Origin: Allorhodopirellula solitaria
Lineage (GTDB): Bacteria > Planctomycetota > Planctomycetia > Pirellulales > Pirellulaceae
Assembly (NCBI RefSeq): GCF_007859855.1
Contig: NZ_SJPK01000008.1
Coordinates: forward strand, 174,375-238,374
Length of the DNA stretch: 64,000 bases
Direction of reading: 5' to 3'
The notes below the pieces were generated by a model. That model made no database searches. It was not told where the DNA came from and saw only the letters and a list, made by a program, of their open reading frames with translations. Positions 6,363-15,024 of the stretch are shown here, in pieces. The position numbers and the translations under genes are program-made. Within the stretch, counting starts at the first letter, position 1, and each line of letters opens with the position of its first letter.

Positions 6363-6400
6363 GGTTCATCCGACGGAAGCGTGCGCAGAGCACAGCGGAA
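6363..6400. repeat. End fragment of the long-inverted-repeat element
   Basis: The sequence ttcatccgacggaagcgtgc at 6368-6387 region resembles the outer ends of the ~710-bp element at 37258-37967 (ctcatccgccggaagcgtgc on the left). The resemblance weakly continues into the aaggtttc..gaggcctggct stretch. The stop that truncates the broken gene at its C-terminal end falls in this fragment, so an insertion and loss probably removed the gene's tail here. Confidence 0.5.
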
Positions 6401-8192
6401 GGTTTCTTGAGGCCTGGCTGATTGGGTTGAATCTCGCGTCAACTTCCATTGTGAAGAACGTTGCCGTGGGGAAGACCTGTCTGGCCTTCTTGAGAATCAG
6501 GTTTTCGTCTGCCCACTCCGATCCGATGATTCCCACGGCGCTTACTCGACTGGGCCGGACGTTGCGCGACGCAGTCACGCCACGAAACTCTGCCATCGAT
6601 CGTTCCAGATAGTCATGCACGGATGGCTTTACCGCACTCAGGTCTTCGTGATTATCGGTCTCAGTATCATTCCTTGTTGACCCGATGTTCTTGAGATGGG
6701 GAACCACGACCGGGGTAGCGAAATCGCTAGATCCATAGAAGGAGTCTTGTAGTCGATTAATGTAATCGACCGAACTTTGCTCGACAAAAAGAACTATCTC
6801 GCTGGTTGAGCCTTCAGCGGGTAACGTGCCGCGCAGGCGGAGTTCATGCCCCAGCAGGCTAATCAAGCGATTGTCATCGCCAATCGTATGAATCAACTTA
6901 AAAGAAACGCCGTCTCCCAGCGGGATCTGATCTGGGGGGCCGGTTTAACCGAGCCCCCGGTTGGACGACGTACACGAGGAGTTGCATACCATCGTGCCCA
7001 TGCCGAAGCATCTAGAAAACTCTCGCAGGTCGTCGCCTTCGTCGCCATTAGTGGTCTGTCACAGTTAAAATTTAGGGTTGATCGTAGTGGACGAGGCGAC
7101 GAGCTGGTCATTACCCACAAAACCAGATCCCCTGTCAGCTTGTCTGACAGGAATCACCGTTTTGTGATTCGATCAAGATGGAGCATTCATCCCGCTCCCA
7201 TGCGGGCTTGCCCCGCATGACAGCAAAGTTTATCGACTTGGTTTCCTGTCAGACAAGCTGACAGGGGAACGTGTGTCGATACCGCGGTTTTCTAATTTCA
7301 AAACGTCGCTTCCCGTGTGACAAGCACACGGGGGAGCAAACTAATGGGTAATCAACAGGAGGCGACGAGTCCTTGGATTTGACGCCAGTTCAGGACTCGT
7401 CGCCTCGTCCACTACCCTAAGAATAAGTCGTGACAGACCACTAGCTACCTCTTTGCAGTCGGTAACGAATTCTCGAAAAGAATTGCTTCCGGTGGACCAC
7501 AATAGGCAGAATGCAGTATCTTTTATACGGTCTTCGGGGGATATATTCTCGGTAATCGTGCGCAACGTGTCGAGCGGGCGTTTGCCAAGATGAGGACGCA
7601 TAATCGACGTCAAGAGAATCAGGTCTCCCGGATCTTTATGCCGGTAGAGTTTTGTAGGAAGGAGGATGGGAACGCTGGTGGTAGCCAGTTTGTGCTGCTT
7701 CCGGGTCTGGGTGGCCGCTGCTGAACGATCGGTGAAGTGGTACTCGATCTCTCAGGAGCGATAGGTCATTCGGTCCCAGAAGGGAGCCTGGTATCCTTGA
7801 TTGGCTAATGCCAGTTCCACTGCGTGACGTCGACGTCGACGATTCTCGATATCCACTGGTCGATCTCCTTCCTGGACCGGAATGACGAGCATCATCAACT
7901 TTTGATTCTTCGTCAGTTTGTTTTCAATTAGATCCTGAATGGCATGCGTCGGTTCCGTGATGGATTTGAGTTTTTCATTCTGAATATCCTTGAAGGGATC
8001 GTCCCACATCGAACCAGCCAAGCTGAGGGTGCCTGACACCGAGGGATAGATGGTATTGAACTCAACAGGGGATTTGTTCGCTTGCGACTCTTCTTTCATG
8101 GCGGGATCAGGGCTCCAACCGAAGTAGAGAAGAAGGGCAAGCAGTCCGCTGCCGACGAACAGGGGTGAAGACAGTGCATTTTCTTGATTCAT
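6366..8192 (-). pseudogene. Decayed gene for a membrane-anchored partner of the CHAT protein
   Basis: Begins with ATG at 8192, 32 bp after the CHAT gene. The first 146 residues have a TM segment (SGLLALLLYFGW), then LAGSMWDDPFKDIQ and a basic RRRRRHAVELALANQG segment, ending at TGA 7752-7754. The same frame continues past the stop (EIEYHFTDRS ... LLTSIMRPHLGKRPLDTL ... LLWSTGSNSFREFV) until a miniature element at 7051-7441. Removing the element plus one TA rejoins the frame exactly, followed by a second stop TAA at 6945-6947. The frame then runs on through IHTIGDDNRL and VSAVGIIGSEW ... FFTMEVDARF and breaks off after SRNL. These phrases recall, from memory, a large uncharacterised planctomycete protein family (RLWQDPF, RTIGTDDRL, TTDLDARL). 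The first 146 residues may still be made. Confidence 0.75.
7051..7441. mobile_element. 391-bp miniature inverted-repeat element (TA target)
   Basis: Terminal inverted repeats begin gtggtctgtcac at 7051 and end gtgacagaccac at 7441. They continue imperfectly through (a)gggt and gtagtggacgaggcgacgag on both sides. The element is flanked by TA at 7049-7050 and 7442-7443, the duplication expected of IS630/Tc1-mariner-type transposition. An inner inverted pair (cctgtcagcttgtctgacagg, at 7131-7151 and 7246-7266) is nested inside. No transposase is encoded. It sits inside the reading frame of the broken gene, and element plus one TA is 393 bp, a multiple of three. A partial relative lies at 48180-48341 and hairpin pieces at 36558-36612 and 201-233. 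Confidence 0.85.
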
Positions 8193-8224: not shown

Positions 8225-11200
8225 TCAGAAAGCTAGATGTTCGTGGATAAAATCTTGAGTTCGATCTACTGAGAGCATGTTGGTGCGATGGATTCCTTCC
8301 TTCTGTGAGAATTCCGTGTCCAAAGGATTGCCGCACGAGTCGTCCTCCAAACGCGTTGCGAGAAGCAATCGTCGTTTTCTATCTCGGCAGCCGGAGGACG
8401 GAGTTAGTCCAGCGTCGGCTGTATTGGGAAGATCAGGCAACTCGGAGATGAGATCGCTGGGACGCATCAAGATCGAGTTTTCGCGTGGATCGATTGGTTC
8501 TAAACCTTCACGTAGCAGCTTCCAAACATTCTGCTGGCGGCCGGCATCGTAGATTGCGACGATGTCCGCTCGCTCCACTTGCGACGGCCACGGTAAAGCG
8601 GGGGTACAGCGATTGGGGTCGAGTGCGGCCAAGCCTGGGACATCTCTTGGCCGCTGGAGGTCTGAGTGGGTTTGGCTGAGTTGCTGCATGGCCGCTAGAC
8701 GTGCCAGCAAACCACTGACACTTGCATACATGCCTGTTCCGTCCAGATGGGACATGTTGATCAGCAGGTCGGCAAGCTGGCCCCAATTGTCAGGATGGAG
8801 CATGCGGCTAGCCCCATGGGGCACTCCGGCGAAGATGATTTTGCGGACGGAATTGTCCCAAGCAACGGTCTTTGCATCGTGGCATTCGATCAAAGCTTTG
8901 GCTACCAAACCGCCTCGACCATGGGCGAGAATGTCGATGCAGTTCTCATTTGCGACACGATTCCCGAGCTGTTGCTGGAGGGCACGTGCGAGTGCATTGG
9001 CGTTCTCCAGCGGCGATTTCGAAAGCGTATGGTGGTCAAATCCCACCACGGCCGCATATTTGCGACAGACGCGACGGGAAAAGCTCTCCTGCAACATCCC
9101 CAAGACGCTTTCGGTGTCACAGAGTGTGTCGTGCAGAATTAGGAGCGTGCGGGGGACGTCACCTGAGGTCGGATAGTTGCCCAAACTCAATGCAGATTGG
9201 CCCAGTGGCTCAGCCGTCGCGTTGGGATTCACCTGTACGAGGCGTTCGCCTGCAATGCGTTCGGAGTCGTACCGTTGGACAAGTTCCGCTACCGATCCTG
9301 CGGAACGCTCCGCGATCCAATGTCCAATGGGGCGTGGAGTCAGCGGGGGGCTGAAGACACGCGGTTGGATGCCAAAGGCCTGACGCAGCGAATCGCTCCG
9401 ATCGATTTCCCATTGAAAGATTGAACCCGGTAGAGGTCGGTTTTTCTCGCCGTCTGCAACCTGCCAGTAGCGTAGACCGTTTTGATCGACGAGGCTTAAC
9501 TCAAAATGGTCATCAGGTATCGCTTCACTCGCGTCTCGGCTGCGCAGCATTTTGGCCGACATTCCTGGGCCACTGAGCGATCGACCTAGCGTGGAGACCG
9601 AGCGTTGCAGCGGCGCGTGGCAGGTGCCCCACGATCCGTCCTTGCGTCGCCGAAGAATGTCAGCCTGTTGGGACTCACTGTCGTTATGCGGTGTTGAGTT
9701 TCCGCATCTGGGCGTGGGCGGGTCGATTGACTGCATGCCGAACGTATCCATCAGCTTCATCGTCGGATTGCCGTATAGAATCAGACTTGCCCAACTGAGT
9801 CCGGCAAAGGTTCCAAGACACTCGCTCGGCTCAATCCCACCCACCGTGATCTGTTTTGCCCGAGCTTTGGCGATCCGCAGCGCTTCGCCCACACTTTCAC
9901 GCTGTAGTAGTAAAGCGTCATAGAAATCGGTGGCTAGTTGCATAGCCACCGCGTCGTCAATAGGCCAGAGCGGACCGATGTACGCAGTGACGCCCTGATT
10001 GATGAACGCGGTCGCGAGCCCAAAGACGTCGCTCTGGTAGCCCGTTGTCTCGGATTCGCCCATGCTGGATTCACAGGCATTGGCGTAGACGAGCCAAGGC
10101 GTTGAGCCGGCGTTGGCCAACGTGTTGCGAATCTCGACCGCCCATAACGGTCCGTCGGACAGAATCCAGGCGCTTTGTTCGCGGTCGTCCTCGACGTACT
10201 CGGCGTGCCCAGCGAAATGGATGATGTCGTACTTCCCCTCACGCAGCCATTCACGAACTTGGTGTGTGGTTACAATTTCATTGATTCGCACGTCTTCTGG
10301 TTGGAAGTTTAGTTCGCCACCAAGTTCCACCTTGAGTCGCTTGAACTGTTGAACGACTTGCTCCGCCTCCTCTCTCGCGCGCGGTAGTTGCTGGGCCCCT
10401 CCGAAGGACCCCAGGATTGGGTCACCGATTATCAAGACCTTCAGTCCCCGCTGCGATCGTTTCGGGACCGGTCGTGCTATTCCCGTTGGCATCGCCAGTT
10501 GTCGCCCGAGGGCGTACCGTTCTCCCAAGAATGCTGTGCCGTCGTGCATCAGTTCCCAGGGGAAACGCATCAGCGACAGCGGTAGTTGCAGCTGCAGGTG
10601 CAAGACTTGATCGGGGGTCTCCTTCTGGACGTGTTGCCGTTCGATGTTTAACGGAGTATGCAATCTTTGAATGACATCTTCGCCGAGCAAACGACCAAGC
10701 GACTCAAAGGTTTTCAGGTGAGTCTTGTTTACCCATGAGCGTTGCAGCAACCCTTCGAGGCGGCTGAGCGTGCTTCGAATCGTCTGCTCGTTGACGCGGC
10801 TGAATTGTTCGGCAACCGTGGCGCCCAACCGAGACGATTCCAACACGACGCGATAGCCGCTGCGTTTGACTACTGTACGTTGTGCCGGCGTATCCCCTAG
10901 CGGAATGGATGCCTTGAGTTCGTCGATCGTCTCCTCGTTGATCGAAAGCGTCACACAGGGCGGACGACGGAGCGCTCGAAACTGGCTGCCCGCACCCGAA
11001 ATCACCGAGTCTGGCCCCGTCAAACGCTTCAACAAATCGTCTCTTGCCCCAGCACTCGCGGTCGAAAGTAACGAGCTGATTAAACGCCACATTTCGCCCG
11101 GATGATTGCTGATCAGATTGATCGCGCCCAACAGCGATACCCAATGAACGTGCTGGTGAAAATCAAGATCAAGATAGCCGGAGTTTATCAAGCGATCGAG

Positions 11201-12772
11201 ATGTTGCGGGCGATGAATCAGGACTCCGCATCGTCGCGTTTTTTTAAGCTTCCGATCCACCCCGTCATCGGCGTCAGCACGCGGTTCGCTCGCCAAAACA
11301 AAGGACTGGCCGCTGGTAGCCAATTCGGTTGCGGCGGGCTCGAAAAGAGTGGCCACTTCTTGGGTCACTTTCAACAGATGAGCCGCATTTTCAAAATTGG
11401 CTTCTTCTTCCTGTGAATCTCGCGTCTGAAAGTCATGCCACATTGTTTCCAATATTTTGCGTCGTGATTCGGCCGCCGCATCGAGCGCGGCGCCTTTTGG
11501 CAACTTGGGGTGAAATGCCCTCTCCGAATGAGTAGCCATGAGGTTCTTAAACGCGTGTTCAAAATTGACCTGCAGTTCTTCGGGAATGCGTTCTTTTCTC
11601 TCCGCGGTGAAATGCTGAGTCAATTGCTGTCGATACCAGAACCGAAAGGGCCCCTGCTCAATTAATTTGTCCATCTCCTCACAGACGACCTGCAGCAGAA
11701 CCAGCAAGTCATAGGCAATCAGCTCGCGACCTCGTAGGTCCGGAACTGCATCGTTTCGCTCATCAAATTCAGCGACAAGCTTTCGGAAAACGCGGTCGCG
11801 CATTTCCCAGACGACGGGGTTTCCCAACGAGGCCAACATCACAAGAAGAAACGTATCCAAAGAGCGAGTGATCCGTTCCAAGTGTGATAAATCCAATGCA
11901 GAAACCACGGGCAGCAACTCCTGCTTGCTGTGATAGGTCTCGCTAATGATTCGCACCAGAACGCACCCCATCGCGCGAGGATCCCGCGGATTGGCATACC
12001 GCATATCCTTGAGCAATTTGATAAGGTTGCAGGGATCGTCATCAGATTCATCGTCGATAAGTGGATCGTCATCCTTCCATCGTAGAAGCTCCGCACAGCC
12101 GTTGATCAACTTGGCATATGACCATTCTGGCGCCTGTTCGTTATTCTCCGATCCGACCATGACGTGGACCAATGATCGCAGCTGATAGGCAATCTCCAAG
12201 AACTGCATCGAGCACATGTCAAACGCGATTAAGTCGATCGGTTTGCCATCGCGGTCTTTGACCAACTCTGCGAGCACCTCACCTAACTCAACCGGATTCA
12301 GAGCATCCTGAGCCGTACCGTCGTCACAGAACGCAAACAGTTGCTCGTAGTCGCCTGTCGAGTCAACGTTTCCCACGATCGAATCCGGCTCGGCGATTCC
12401 CGTGCCACCAAAGATGAGCGCGATGTGCCGGGCGGGACATTGCTGGATGCCCCAACGGAAAAACTTCAGCGCCGTTTCAGGGTCGCCCGTATTGATCTCG
12501 CCAATGGAATCGGCCGAAATATTGTCCATTGACTCGTCCGCGATTACGAATCGGTGGGCCCCCTCTCCCGCCAAGTCGTGTTGGACCGCAACATAGACGT
12601 GCTCGGAAGGTTTGATCTTCCGGATGTGTTTGAGATTTTTTTGGATTCGGCGGCTCCACTGACCGTGGTCGCCGCAGAGATAAAAGAGGAATAGCCAAGT
12701 CCGTGTCTCACGTTCAGGGCGTTGTTGGTCCTGAGCCATAAAGGCGGGGTCAGATTGAGAAAAAGTGGACAT
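8225..12772 (-). CDS. Clostripain-like / CHAT / alpha-beta-hydrolase-like multidomain protein
   Basis: 1515 aa from ATG at 12772 (MSTFSQS; GAGA just upstream; the frame is open to 12814). Residues ~25-260 resemble peptidase C11 (clostripain): TWLFLFYLCGD, then DLIAFDMCSMQFLEIAY with the nucleophile Cys187. The catalytic His of the W(D/N)HG motif is replaced (LIFGGTG, Thr124). Residues ~710-1010 form a CHAT (caspase HetF-associated with TPR) domain with HFAGH (His856) and ANACES (Cys900), both catalytic residues present. Residues ~1205-1400 look like an alpha/beta hydrolase, but the GHSxGG elbow reads AHGRGG (1283-1288), without Ser. There is no signal peptide, so it is probably cytoplasmic. 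The broken membrane-anchored gene follows at 32 bp. CHAT proteases are known effectors in bacterial immunity; that role here is inference. Confidence 0.85.
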   Translation of the reverse strand: MSTFSQSDPAFMAQDQQRPERETRTWLFLFYLCGDHGQWSRRIQKNLKHIRKIKPSEHVYVAVQHDLAGEGAHRFVIADESMDNISADSIGEINTGDPETALKFFRWGIQQCPARHIALIFGGTGIAEPDSIVGNVDSTGDYEQLFAFCDDGTAQDALNPVELGEVLAELVKDRDGKPIDLIAFDMCSMQFLEIAYQLRSLVHVMVGSENNEQAPEWSYAKLINGCAELLRWKDDDPLIDDESDDDPCNLIKLLKDMRYANPRDPRAMGCVLVRIISETYHSKQELLPVVSALDLSHLERITRSLDTFLLVMLASLGNPVVWEMRDRVFRKLVAEFDERNDAVPDLRGRELIAYDLLVLLQVVCEEMDKLIEQGPFRFWYRQQLTQHFTAERKERIPEELQVNFEHAFKNLMATHSERAFHPKLPKGAALDAAAESRRKILETMWHDFQTRDSQEEEANFENAAHLLKVTQEVATLFEPAATELATSGQSFVLASEPRADADDGVDRKLKKTRRCGVLIHRPQHLDRLINSGYLDLDFHQHVHWVSLLGAINLISNHPGEMWRLISSLLSTASAGARDDLLKRLTGPDSVISGAGSQFRALRRPPCVTLSINEETIDELKASIPLGDTPAQRTVVKRSGYRVVLESSRLGATVAEQFSRVNEQTIRSTLSRLEGLLQRSWVNKTHLKTFESLGRLLGEDVIQRLHTPLNIERQHVQKETPDQVLHLQLQLPLSLMRFPWELMHDGTAFLGERYALGRQLAMPTGIARPVPKRSQRGLKVLIIGDPILGSFGGAQQLPRAREEAEQVVQQFKRLKVELGGELNFQPEDVRINEIVTTHQVREWLREGKYDIIHFAGHAEYVEDDREQSAWILSDGPLWAVEIRNTLANAGSTPWLVYANACESSMGESETTGYQSDVFGLATAFINQGVTAYIGPLWPIDDAVAMQLATDFYDALLLQRESVGEALRIAKARAKQITVGGIEPSECLGTFAGLSWASLILYGNPTMKLMDTFGMQSIDPPTPRCGNSTPHNDSESQQADILRRRKDGSWGTCHAPLQRSVSTLGRSLSGPGMSAKMLRSRDASEAIPDDHFELSLVDQNGLRYWQVADGEKNRPLPGSIFQWEIDRSDSLRQAFGIQPRVFSPPLTPRPIGHWIAERSAGSVAELVQRYDSERIAGERLVQVNPNATAEPLGQSALSLGNYPTSGDVPRTLLILHDTLCDTESVLGMLQESFSRRVCRKYAAVVGFDHHTLSKSPLENANALARALQQQLGNRVANENCIDILAHGRGGLVAKALIECHDAKTVAWDNSVRKIIFAGVPHGASRMLHPDNWGQLADLLINMSHLDGTGMYASVSGLLARLAAMQQLSQTHSDLQRPRDVPGLAALDPNRCTPALPWPSQVERADIVAIYDAGRQQNVWKLLREGLEPIDPRENSILMRPSDLISELPDLPNTADAGLTPSSGCRDRKRRLLLATRLEDDSCGNPLDTEFSQKEGIHRTNMLSVDRTQDFIHEHLAF

Positions 12773-13291
12773 GGTGTTCTCTCGGGAAATTTCGCACCGA
12801 ATAGGGATGTACACCTACCCTGTGAGGCCGGTTAAGGCTACTCCTTCAGGGGGCCGTTGTCAAATTTTCCGTAGCGCTTCAGGCAGGGGCGCACAGAAGA
12901 TGCTCTGACCGGCCACGTCTTGTTCTCTCTGGCAATGCAGAACAGCGGATGTCAACTCAACTGCCATTTCTCGCGGGCGGGCGGGATGCCCGCATTCCTT
13001 GCGGCACGGAGACGCGCAGGTGTTTGTCCCTCGCGGGAAGCGACGCGGCGACGCCTCGTGTGTGTCCCCGTACTGTCAAATACCTCGGCCGATGTGACGG
13101 GCCGGTGAATCAAGGCGAGCCTCTTGACCATGGTCTGCCATCTACTCTAAACTAACGAAGGCTATTGCGATTGAGTCTCAATAGCCAGAGCGTCAAGCCA
13201 GCAAACTTTGTCCAGCCAGCCAGACATCCGTTCGCAGCACTGCTGCGATGAAGATTCCCGCCAAGCCTCCCCCCGCGCAAAGTTCTGGAAA
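12773..13291. other. Spacer upstream of the CHAT gene, divergent to the DUF1559 gene
   Basis: About 520 bp that must contain the promoters of two divergent genes. A small inverted pair is seen around 12973-13010 (gcgggcgggatgcccgc). No clear -35/-10 pair, operator or RNA gene could be assigned. Open frames here are short and unconvincing. Confidence 0.4.
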
Positions 13292-14410: not shown

Positions 14411-14610
14411 GTGATCGCAGGTCGCTCTCTTTACTCAACTTGCCGCTCAAATGAAGCAACTGTGGCAAAAGCGTGTTTCTCCCGTGGGACCGGTTGATGA
14501 AGACGTCTGGAGGCCTGTCCACCAGCGTCCAGTTGCCCTCCGAGATCGGTCTCATTCGACCCAGTGACGGGCGGAGATGCTCATCAATTACGGGAATGGA
14601 CGTTAGTCCA

Positions 14611-14648
14611 TAAAAAAAGCCACTCTGCGAAGAATCGCAAAGTGGCTA
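14611..14648 (-). terminator. Rho-independent terminator of tmRNA
   Basis: On the minus strand AGCCACTTTGCGA and TCGCAGAGTGGCT form a stem around TTCT, followed by a run of seven T. It begins six bases after the tmRNA 3' end. Confidence 0.85.
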
Positions 14649-14653
14649 ATCAG

Positions 14654-15024
14654 TGGAGGCGGGGAGGATTGAACTCCCGTCCCGCGATGCATCCACGACA
14701 CCGTCTACATGTGTAGTCAGACTATTTGTGCTCTTGCGAGCGATTCGCTTCACGAGGCGCTGCCTAACAGGCTCCCCGATTGGCTAACTCAAATCAAATT
14801 TAACCGATCGCGTCTTGAGTAAGACGACCAGCGATCCGGAATTGTGACGGACATTCGGGCGACTCCGGCGATCCCCCTCAGTCCGCGCTACCTATACTTA
14901 GGCGGCGAGTGCAAAGTTTTCTTCTGCAACTAAAATTTTTGATCAGATTTTTACGTGGCCTTCTGATCAACCACGACACGCAGGCATTCGCTTCTTGACA
15001 TCCGGTCGATTCCAAGTCGCCCCC
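14654..15024 (-). ncRNA. ssrA: Transfer-messenger RNA (tmRNA)
   Basis: Rescues stalled ribosomes by trans-translation. On the minus strand the 5' end GGGGGCG pairs over seven positions with CGCCTCC at the 3' end (discriminator A, no encoded CCA). The T-arm is GGGAG-TTCAATC-CTCCC, and the 5' region GACTTGGAATCGACCGG is the usual start of the tRNA-like domain. The tag frame is at 14898-14927: GCA GAA GAA AAC TTT GCA CTC GCC GCC TAA, encoding AEENFALAA, with LAA as the protease signal. The resume codon follows TTTTAGTT. The RNA is one piece of 371 nt. The tag matches what I recall for Rhodopirellula. Confidence 0.95.

Follow-up and report, generated by a model that had tools for sequence, protein, structure and literature searches.

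NTP-dependent conflict systems pair a peptidase of the caspase superfamily with an alpha/beta-hydrolase, and the peptidase domains in conflict systems are often catalytically inactive; for the inactive ones, a role as modules for binding or with a dominant-negative effect has been proposed (Kaur et al. 2020, PMC7159879, excerpts). In TPR-CHAT/Csx29 (Craspase), an allosteric signal reorganizes the catalytic residues of the CHAT protease (PMC10028731, excerpts). In fungi, HET-Q2-like proteases are encoded beside gasdermin genes; about 60% of these proteases are S8 and about 17% are CHAT (PMC10989679, excerpts).

We analyzed a window of 64,000 nucleotides from Allorhodopirellula solitaria (positions 174,375 to 238,374 of NZ_SJPK01000008.1), which contains a gene for one long fusion protein. 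All positions are those of the window.

8225..12772, minus strand: C11-CHAT-DUF7379 fusion (P0001), an ORF of 1515 aa from ATG

Like Craspase, the fusion has a CHAT protease domain, but Craspase has TPR and is regulated by CRISPR (PMC10028731, excerpts), and we found no Pfam match to TPR in the fusion. In the conflict systems of Kaur et al., the hydrolase is encoded by a neighboring gene and there are MoxR/vWA components, whereas here C11, CHAT and the hydrolase are in one chain; the text of that paper mentions neither CHAT nor clostripain (PMC7159879). By Pfam, none of 15 other ORFs of the window between 0.4 and 32 kb has a vWA or MoxR domain (as in VMAP systems). As in the HET-Q2-like pairs, there is a protease slot beside a gene for a membrane-acting effector, but the neighbor of HET-Q2 is a gasdermin (PMC10989679, excerpts), while the neighbor here belongs to a family that looks like a multi-helix membrane protein and has no Pfam match. 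In the open full-text literature (most subscription journals are outside it), we found nothing on CHAT with clostripain and a hydrolase, on CHAT with peptidase C11, or on DUF7379. Beside the published conflict systems, C11, CHAT and a hydrolase in one chain looks like a new variation on a known theme.

Three domains in one chain

A sequence-only reading of this DNA had proposed clostripain-like, CHAT and alpha/beta-hydrolase-like domains in one 1515-aa chain. We scanned the protein with Pfam, using the curated cut-off of each family as the threshold, and all three domains scored above theirs:

11831..12643, minus strand: Peptidase_C11 (clostripain-like) domain, residues 44-314 (66.4 bits, cut-off 25.8)
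9770..10630, minus strand: CHAT domain, residues 715-1001 (112.4 bits, cut-off 24)
8612..9145, minus strand: DUF7379 alpha/beta-hydrolase domain, residues 1210-1387 (108.4 bits, cut-off 33)

Because of these scores, and because a divergent homologue has the same domain order, the three-domain call is not due to chance. (An in-frame GTG at 12814 would extend the product to 1529 aa.) Starting near residue 1080, the chain can be matched to entire stand-alone DUF7379 proteins (about 430 aa), beginning with their N-terminal parts, so the C-terminal third of the fusion looks like a whole DUF7379 protein that was fused on. When we used the linker alone as the query, phmmer matched nothing beyond the two fusion proteins, and this reading therefore rests on the multiple alignment.

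One intact and two incomplete active sites

We aligned each domain with its relatives to find the residues at the catalytic positions:

12401..12403, minus strand: Thr124, at the column of the catalytic His of C11
12212..12214, minus strand: Cys187, at the column of the catalytic Cys of C11
10205..10207, minus strand: His856, the catalytic His of CHAT
10073..10075, minus strand: Cys900, the catalytic Cys of CHAT
8918..8920, minus strand: Gly1285, at the column of the hydrolase's nucleophile (Ser), from the alignment and the AlphaFold2 model
8453..8455, minus strand: Asp1440, the putative catalytic acid of the hydrolase, kept
8285..8287, minus strand: Arg1496, at the column of the catalytic His of the hydrolase

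For CHAT, the alignment bears out the sequence-only reading, which had named His856 and Cys900. We compared 47 distinct CHAT segments (identical ones were removed, and some proteins give two segments). The His column holds His in 37 of them and gaps in the other 10, and the Cys column holds Cys in 41 and gaps in 6; neither column contains any other residue. Against the proteins of PADLOC, the CHAT region of the fusion has a weak match (BovA, E = 9e-4), and so does the CHAT region of the second fusion protein, P0005 (BovA, 7e-6; SAVED_CHAT, 4e-3).

For C11, the His-Cys dyad is incomplete by the alignment: Cys187 is kept, and Thr124 replaces the His. We counted 35 C11 ORFs outside the fusion, with one duplicate (L062 = L199), which leaves 34 distinct relatives. 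All 34 have the Cys; at the His column, 28 have His and 6 have Tyr. (The 6 with Tyr, from L185, L193, L198, L199, L200 and L202, form a group with GYGEG here, and they keep the Cys.) Within the stretches that we fetched, none of the 35 ORFs was accompanied by CHAT or the hydrolase.

The triad of serine hydrolases is Ser-Asp-His. In the fusion's hydrolase domain, the alignment gives Gly1285, Asp1440 and Arg1496, so the triad is incomplete. We found DUF7379 matches in 201 of 239 genomes, and we counted residues in 43 relatives from these; a copy of the window itself (L129) and a fragment (L020:1785-2492) were excluded. At the nucleophile position, 42 of the 43 have Ser and one (from G170) has Gly. 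Asp stands at the acid position in 42, and His at the last position of the triad in 42, with one gap in each case. The fusion also has Asp1215 where the Gly of the HG motif stands in 41 of 43 relatives (the other two have gaps); this Gly is near the oxyanion site. The sequence-only reading held that each flanking domain lacks one catalytic residue. This is correct for C11; the hydrolase has lost two, and we reject the idea that just one residue of its triad is missing. We also considered an error of frame or start that would mask the missing residues, and rejected it, as in both fusion proteins the alignment of the domains extends across the sites.

Homologues with intact residues, which the sequence-only reading had suggested searching for, thus exist in both outer families. 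Because the catalytic residues of the outer domains are mostly kept outside the fusion, those domains look like retained pseudoenzymes. The Ser loss in G170 and the Tyr in 6 of 34 C11 relatives indicate that loss of residues is not unique to the fusion. As judged from the alignments, the best-supported statement is structural: an intact CHAT dyad lies between two enzyme folds without theirs.

Predicted structures of the outer domains

We used AlphaFold2 to model the outer domains, as had also been suggested. For residues 1-540 (36 sequences; mean pLDDT 72, pTM 0.76), Thr124 comes directly after strand 114-122 and Cys187 directly after strand 179-185, which are core strands. When we compared this model to known structures with Foldseek, clostripain (9cip) ranked first (E = 6e-12), with a modest TM-score (0.42 by query length), and other C11 proteases came next.

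The model of residues 1150-1515 was built from 38 sequences (mean pLDDT 72, pTM 0.77). For the alignment behind it, we left out 7 of the 43 relatives (L076, L079, L084, L208, L235, L236 and L237) because of long tails, partial sequences or remoteness. Strand 1278-1284, Gly1285 and helix 1287-1298 are arranged as in a nucleophile elbow (pLDDT about 92), while the region of Asp1440 is poorly modeled (pLDDT about 36) and that of residue 1496 is middling (63). Foldseek found 50 chains at E ≤ 0.001, and by title, nearly all have the alpha/beta-hydrolase fold, with low TM-scores (0.24-0.40 by query length). These matches include NDRG2 and a chain from a complex with NDRG3.

Might one of the outer domains keep a changed activity, either via Cys187 or by a non-canonical mechanism of the hydrolase fold? 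Since Cys187 is still there, some C11 chemistry could persist, and the Foldseek matches also include two dioxygenases with the alpha/beta-hydrolase fold, HOD and AqdC, which are not known to use Ser-hydrolase chemistry. However, the second fusion protein lacks the C11 Cys, and the A. solitaria protein lacks the hydrolase His. We consider a changed activity to be quite unlikely.

A second fusion protein

With profiles or the full protein, we searched genomes from the family and the phylum to which the window belongs. In the family (241 genomes, with two candidates scored per genome and loci taken for the best matches), there is one other full-length match, P0005 from G221, which is 33% identical overall and has the three domains in identical order. 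The full architecture was found in 2 of 241 family genomes, and its distribution is patchy: the 12 other genomes of the genus have at most a partial match. In the phylum (392 genomes, two candidates scored per genome), none of the matches listed from outside A. solitaria covered two or all three of the domains; one of the matched ORFs, from G321, was later found to have both DUF7379 and CHAT. In one of the searches for relatives, 58 of 382 genomes matched and 30 loci were taken. A scan of the genome contigs with the whole fusion protein turned up no relative.

The CHAT dyad of the second fusion protein is intact (FAGHS and ANACE), and CHAT is the best-conserved domain between the two proteins (46% identity, versus 37% for the stretch before CHAT, 30% for the hydrolase, and 25% each for C11 and the linker). 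Both proteins have Gly for the hydrolase's Ser, and both have lost the C11 His (to Thr in A. solitaria and Leu in G221). Further losses differ: the A. solitaria protein has Arg for the hydrolase's His, which the second protein keeps, while the second protein has Gly for the C11 Cys and, by this alignment, Glu for the hydrolase's Asp. Shared losses together with different further losses argue that catalysis was lost long ago while the folds were kept; the different losses would be expected once selection on catalysis was gone. Together with the alignments of relatives, the second protein supports the earlier view of two pseudo-enzyme domains around an intact CHAT dyad. In one chain, there is an intact and an inactivated domain with clan-CD folds (CHAT and C11), along with a dead hydrolase, and a divergent homologue repeats the pattern.

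What might the outer domains be for? One explanation is that they serve only in the folding or oligomerization of CHAT and sense nothing. Indeed, they are among the least conserved parts of the protein (25-30% identity, as compared to 25% for the linker as well). On the other hand, both folds persist in both proteins with their active-site loops (HGRG in the hydrolase; FDMCSM or FDAGAT in C11). This persistence suggests more than a structural leftover, although stability alone could keep such loops. Overall, we doubt that the outer domains are structural leftovers.

Instead, we favor a regulated CHAT cysteine protease with two outer pseudoenzymes that are kept for binding, and we give this a probability of roughly 0.55. 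Rather than cutting, the outer domains probably sense or hold something, and "sensing or scaffolding," as first proposed from the sequence, seems reasonable for them. The N-terminal C11 fold, in which no Cys-His dyad is possible, would bind a partner or a peptide, and the DUF7379 fold at the C-terminus, without its nucleophile, would recognize a ligand or a membrane-related molecule and not hydrolyze it. Binding at either outer domain would open the CHAT site, and CHAT would then cut one protein substrate or a few. The membrane protein encoded next door would be plausible as a substrate, as in protease-triggered modules for cell death or defense. We infer the activity of CHAT, the binding roles, the gating, the substrate and the role in defense. 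The idea of a gated CHAT protease that carries two modules for binding draws on the published conflict systems (PMC7159879, excerpts), and possible action on the neighboring membrane protein is by analogy to the fungal S8 and CHAT proteases that act on gasdermins (PMC10989679, excerpts). The fusion is a clean test object for what dead domains bind.

The neighboring membrane protein

Directly downstream of the fusion gene, and on the same strand, is the remnant of another gene:

6366..8192, minus strand: broken remnant of a gene for a membrane protein of about 1000 aa, a possible partner, identified from its relatives; the gap to the fusion gene is 32 nt
7049..7443, no strand assigned: MITE-like element within the remnant, 395 bases, with terminal inverted repeats TAGTGGTCTGTCAC

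The remnant has in-frame stops besides the MITE-like insertion. The C-terminal half of the membrane-protein gene has no match at the remnant (in the search of A. solitaria's own genome, 2 of 5 candidates were scored). The MITE-like element has 7 other near-full copies in the genome, at 98-99% identity. (The genome has 120 match rows for this element, many of which are fragments or matches of inverted arms.)

Given a broken neighbor, the fusion gene might be dying as well, with its catalytic residues missing because of random erosion. Besides the state of the adjacent gene, the scarcity of the fusion in the rest of the genus would fit with decay, and so would its GC content at third codon positions, which is 0.55-0.66; this is below that of four other genes in the window (0.70-0.73) and overlaps that of the remnants (0.55-0.59). 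(The low third-position GC would fit a foreign origin too.) But all 1515 codons are still open, the CHAT dyad is intact, and the losses of the hydrolase's Ser and the C11 His are shared with a homologue at 33% identity, so they are probably old. We consider decay unlikely.

Relatives of the remnant are found in 13 of 239 family genomes, including A. solitaria itself. The intact relatives are about 1000 aa, and by eye, both their N-terminus and their C-terminal part have hydrophobic segments. For two intact relatives, no Pfam family reached its cut-off (for P0006, there was none up to E = 1). The membrane family is present in Pirellulaceae, other Planctomycetota, Nitrosomonas, Nitrosospira, Nitrococcus and others. 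This family, which extends to Nitrosomonas and other Proteobacteria, is a candidate class of substrates.

We examined the slot upstream of the membrane protein in 42 loci outside the window. In 13 of these, an ORF of at least 200 aa lies within 300 bases upstream on the same strand; the other 29, including the closest listed relatives (G165 and G209), have no such ORF. In 6 of the 42 loci, the slot holds something like a peptidase: three subtilases (two of which have weak alpha/beta-hydrolase matches in their N-terminal part), one fusion of trypsin and endonuclease I, and two doubtful cases. The first doubtful case, from G143, resembles a zinc metallopeptidase but is below the Pfam cut-off; it lies 200 bases upstream, has an HELAH motif and a secretion signal by eye, and is near-identical in G145. 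The second is a piece of Peptidase_M1 in G554. In the remaining 7 of the 13, the slot gene is not a peptidase or is unknown: two EAL proteins, from two Nitrosomonas records, and five proteins without a Pfam family. The G143 protein, the G554 piece and the EAL genes are possibly chance neighbors of the membrane family. (The fusion of a trypsin-like peptidase and endonuclease I, L168:6788-8974, is directly upstream of its membrane-protein relative.)

Using local profiles for S8, CHAT, caspase and C11, just 4 of the 306 ORFs in the membrane-family loci matched, and 3 of these were in the upstream slot. (The fourth is a caspase-DUF7379 protein, two genes away from a membrane-protein relative.) This enrichment gives P = 2e-4 (hypergeometric test), which is post hoc, as the count was made after the pattern was first noticed in L103 and L104, and two of the subtilases are related. 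We view the slot pattern as suggestive of a module of protease and membrane protein. More broadly, there might be a two-gene module in which interchangeable proteases, with a hydrolase-like or other sensor or effector domain, control the conserved multi-helix membrane protein of about 1000 aa; here, the protease would be CHAT, with the dead clostripain and the dead hydrolase as its sensors for peptide and lipid. This broader scheme is speculative, and we think it improbable. Against a partnership, the neighboring gene is a pseudogene in A. solitaria, and there is no protease upstream in the closest listed relatives. In G221, the contig stops 709 bases past the fusion gene, and the genome's sole match to the membrane family, a weak one, is on a different contig; the partnership is thus not observed across the two fusion proteins.

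Other proteins with DUF7379 or CHAT

Several other proteins join DUF7379 to a peptidase of the caspase type, as the fusion does. In A. solitaria itself, two caspase-DUF7379 proteins (L034:5254-8538 and L035:5826-9134) have an intact hydrolase Ser, and each is encoded next to an nSTAND1-WD40 gene. One of these nSTAND1-WD40 partners has HEAT repeats, and the partner in L034 has a CHAT-like start, by eye. In G170, the hydrolase's Ser is replaced by Gly in a caspase-DUF7379 protein (L242:2237-6067), and the next gene encodes a CHAT protein (29.8 bits, cut-off 24) that has a NACHT-like match below the cut-off. These three proteins differ from the fusion in that their peptidase is C14, not C11 and CHAT, and in L034 and L035 the Ser is intact.

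DUF7379 is associated with CHAT in other genomes as well. In G355 (L072), a DUF7379 gene overlaps a CHAT gene; in G321 (L076), there is a DUF7362-DUF7379-TCAD7-DUF7363-CHAT fusion; and in G572, a DUF7379 gene is next to a gene whose CHAT match is just under the cut-off. Like the fusion, the proteins from G355 and G321 have DUF7379 and CHAT as partners, but they are without C11, and the Ser and the last His of their hydrolases are intact. Since CHAT and DUF7379 recur as partners, C11 is the addition in this fusion.

One planctomycete family has short CHAT proteins (L067, L070 and L071; 465-498 aa). The CHAT gene in L067 adjoins a methyltransferase and a 509-aa protein without a Pfam family, and in L070 or L071 there are genes of similar size (judged by length only).

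GC content and the tmRNA gene

The GC content at 5-15 kb of the window is 0.51-0.58, which is lower than in the following 10 kb (0.56-0.62), as is often the case for accessory DNA. We considered whether the end of ssrA carries a mark of integration, but no 14-base piece of 14601-14719 has a copy within 3.0-14.6 kb except for self matches. The tmRNA gene (14653-15024, with the tag AEENFALAA) is about 1.8 kb from the fusion gene.
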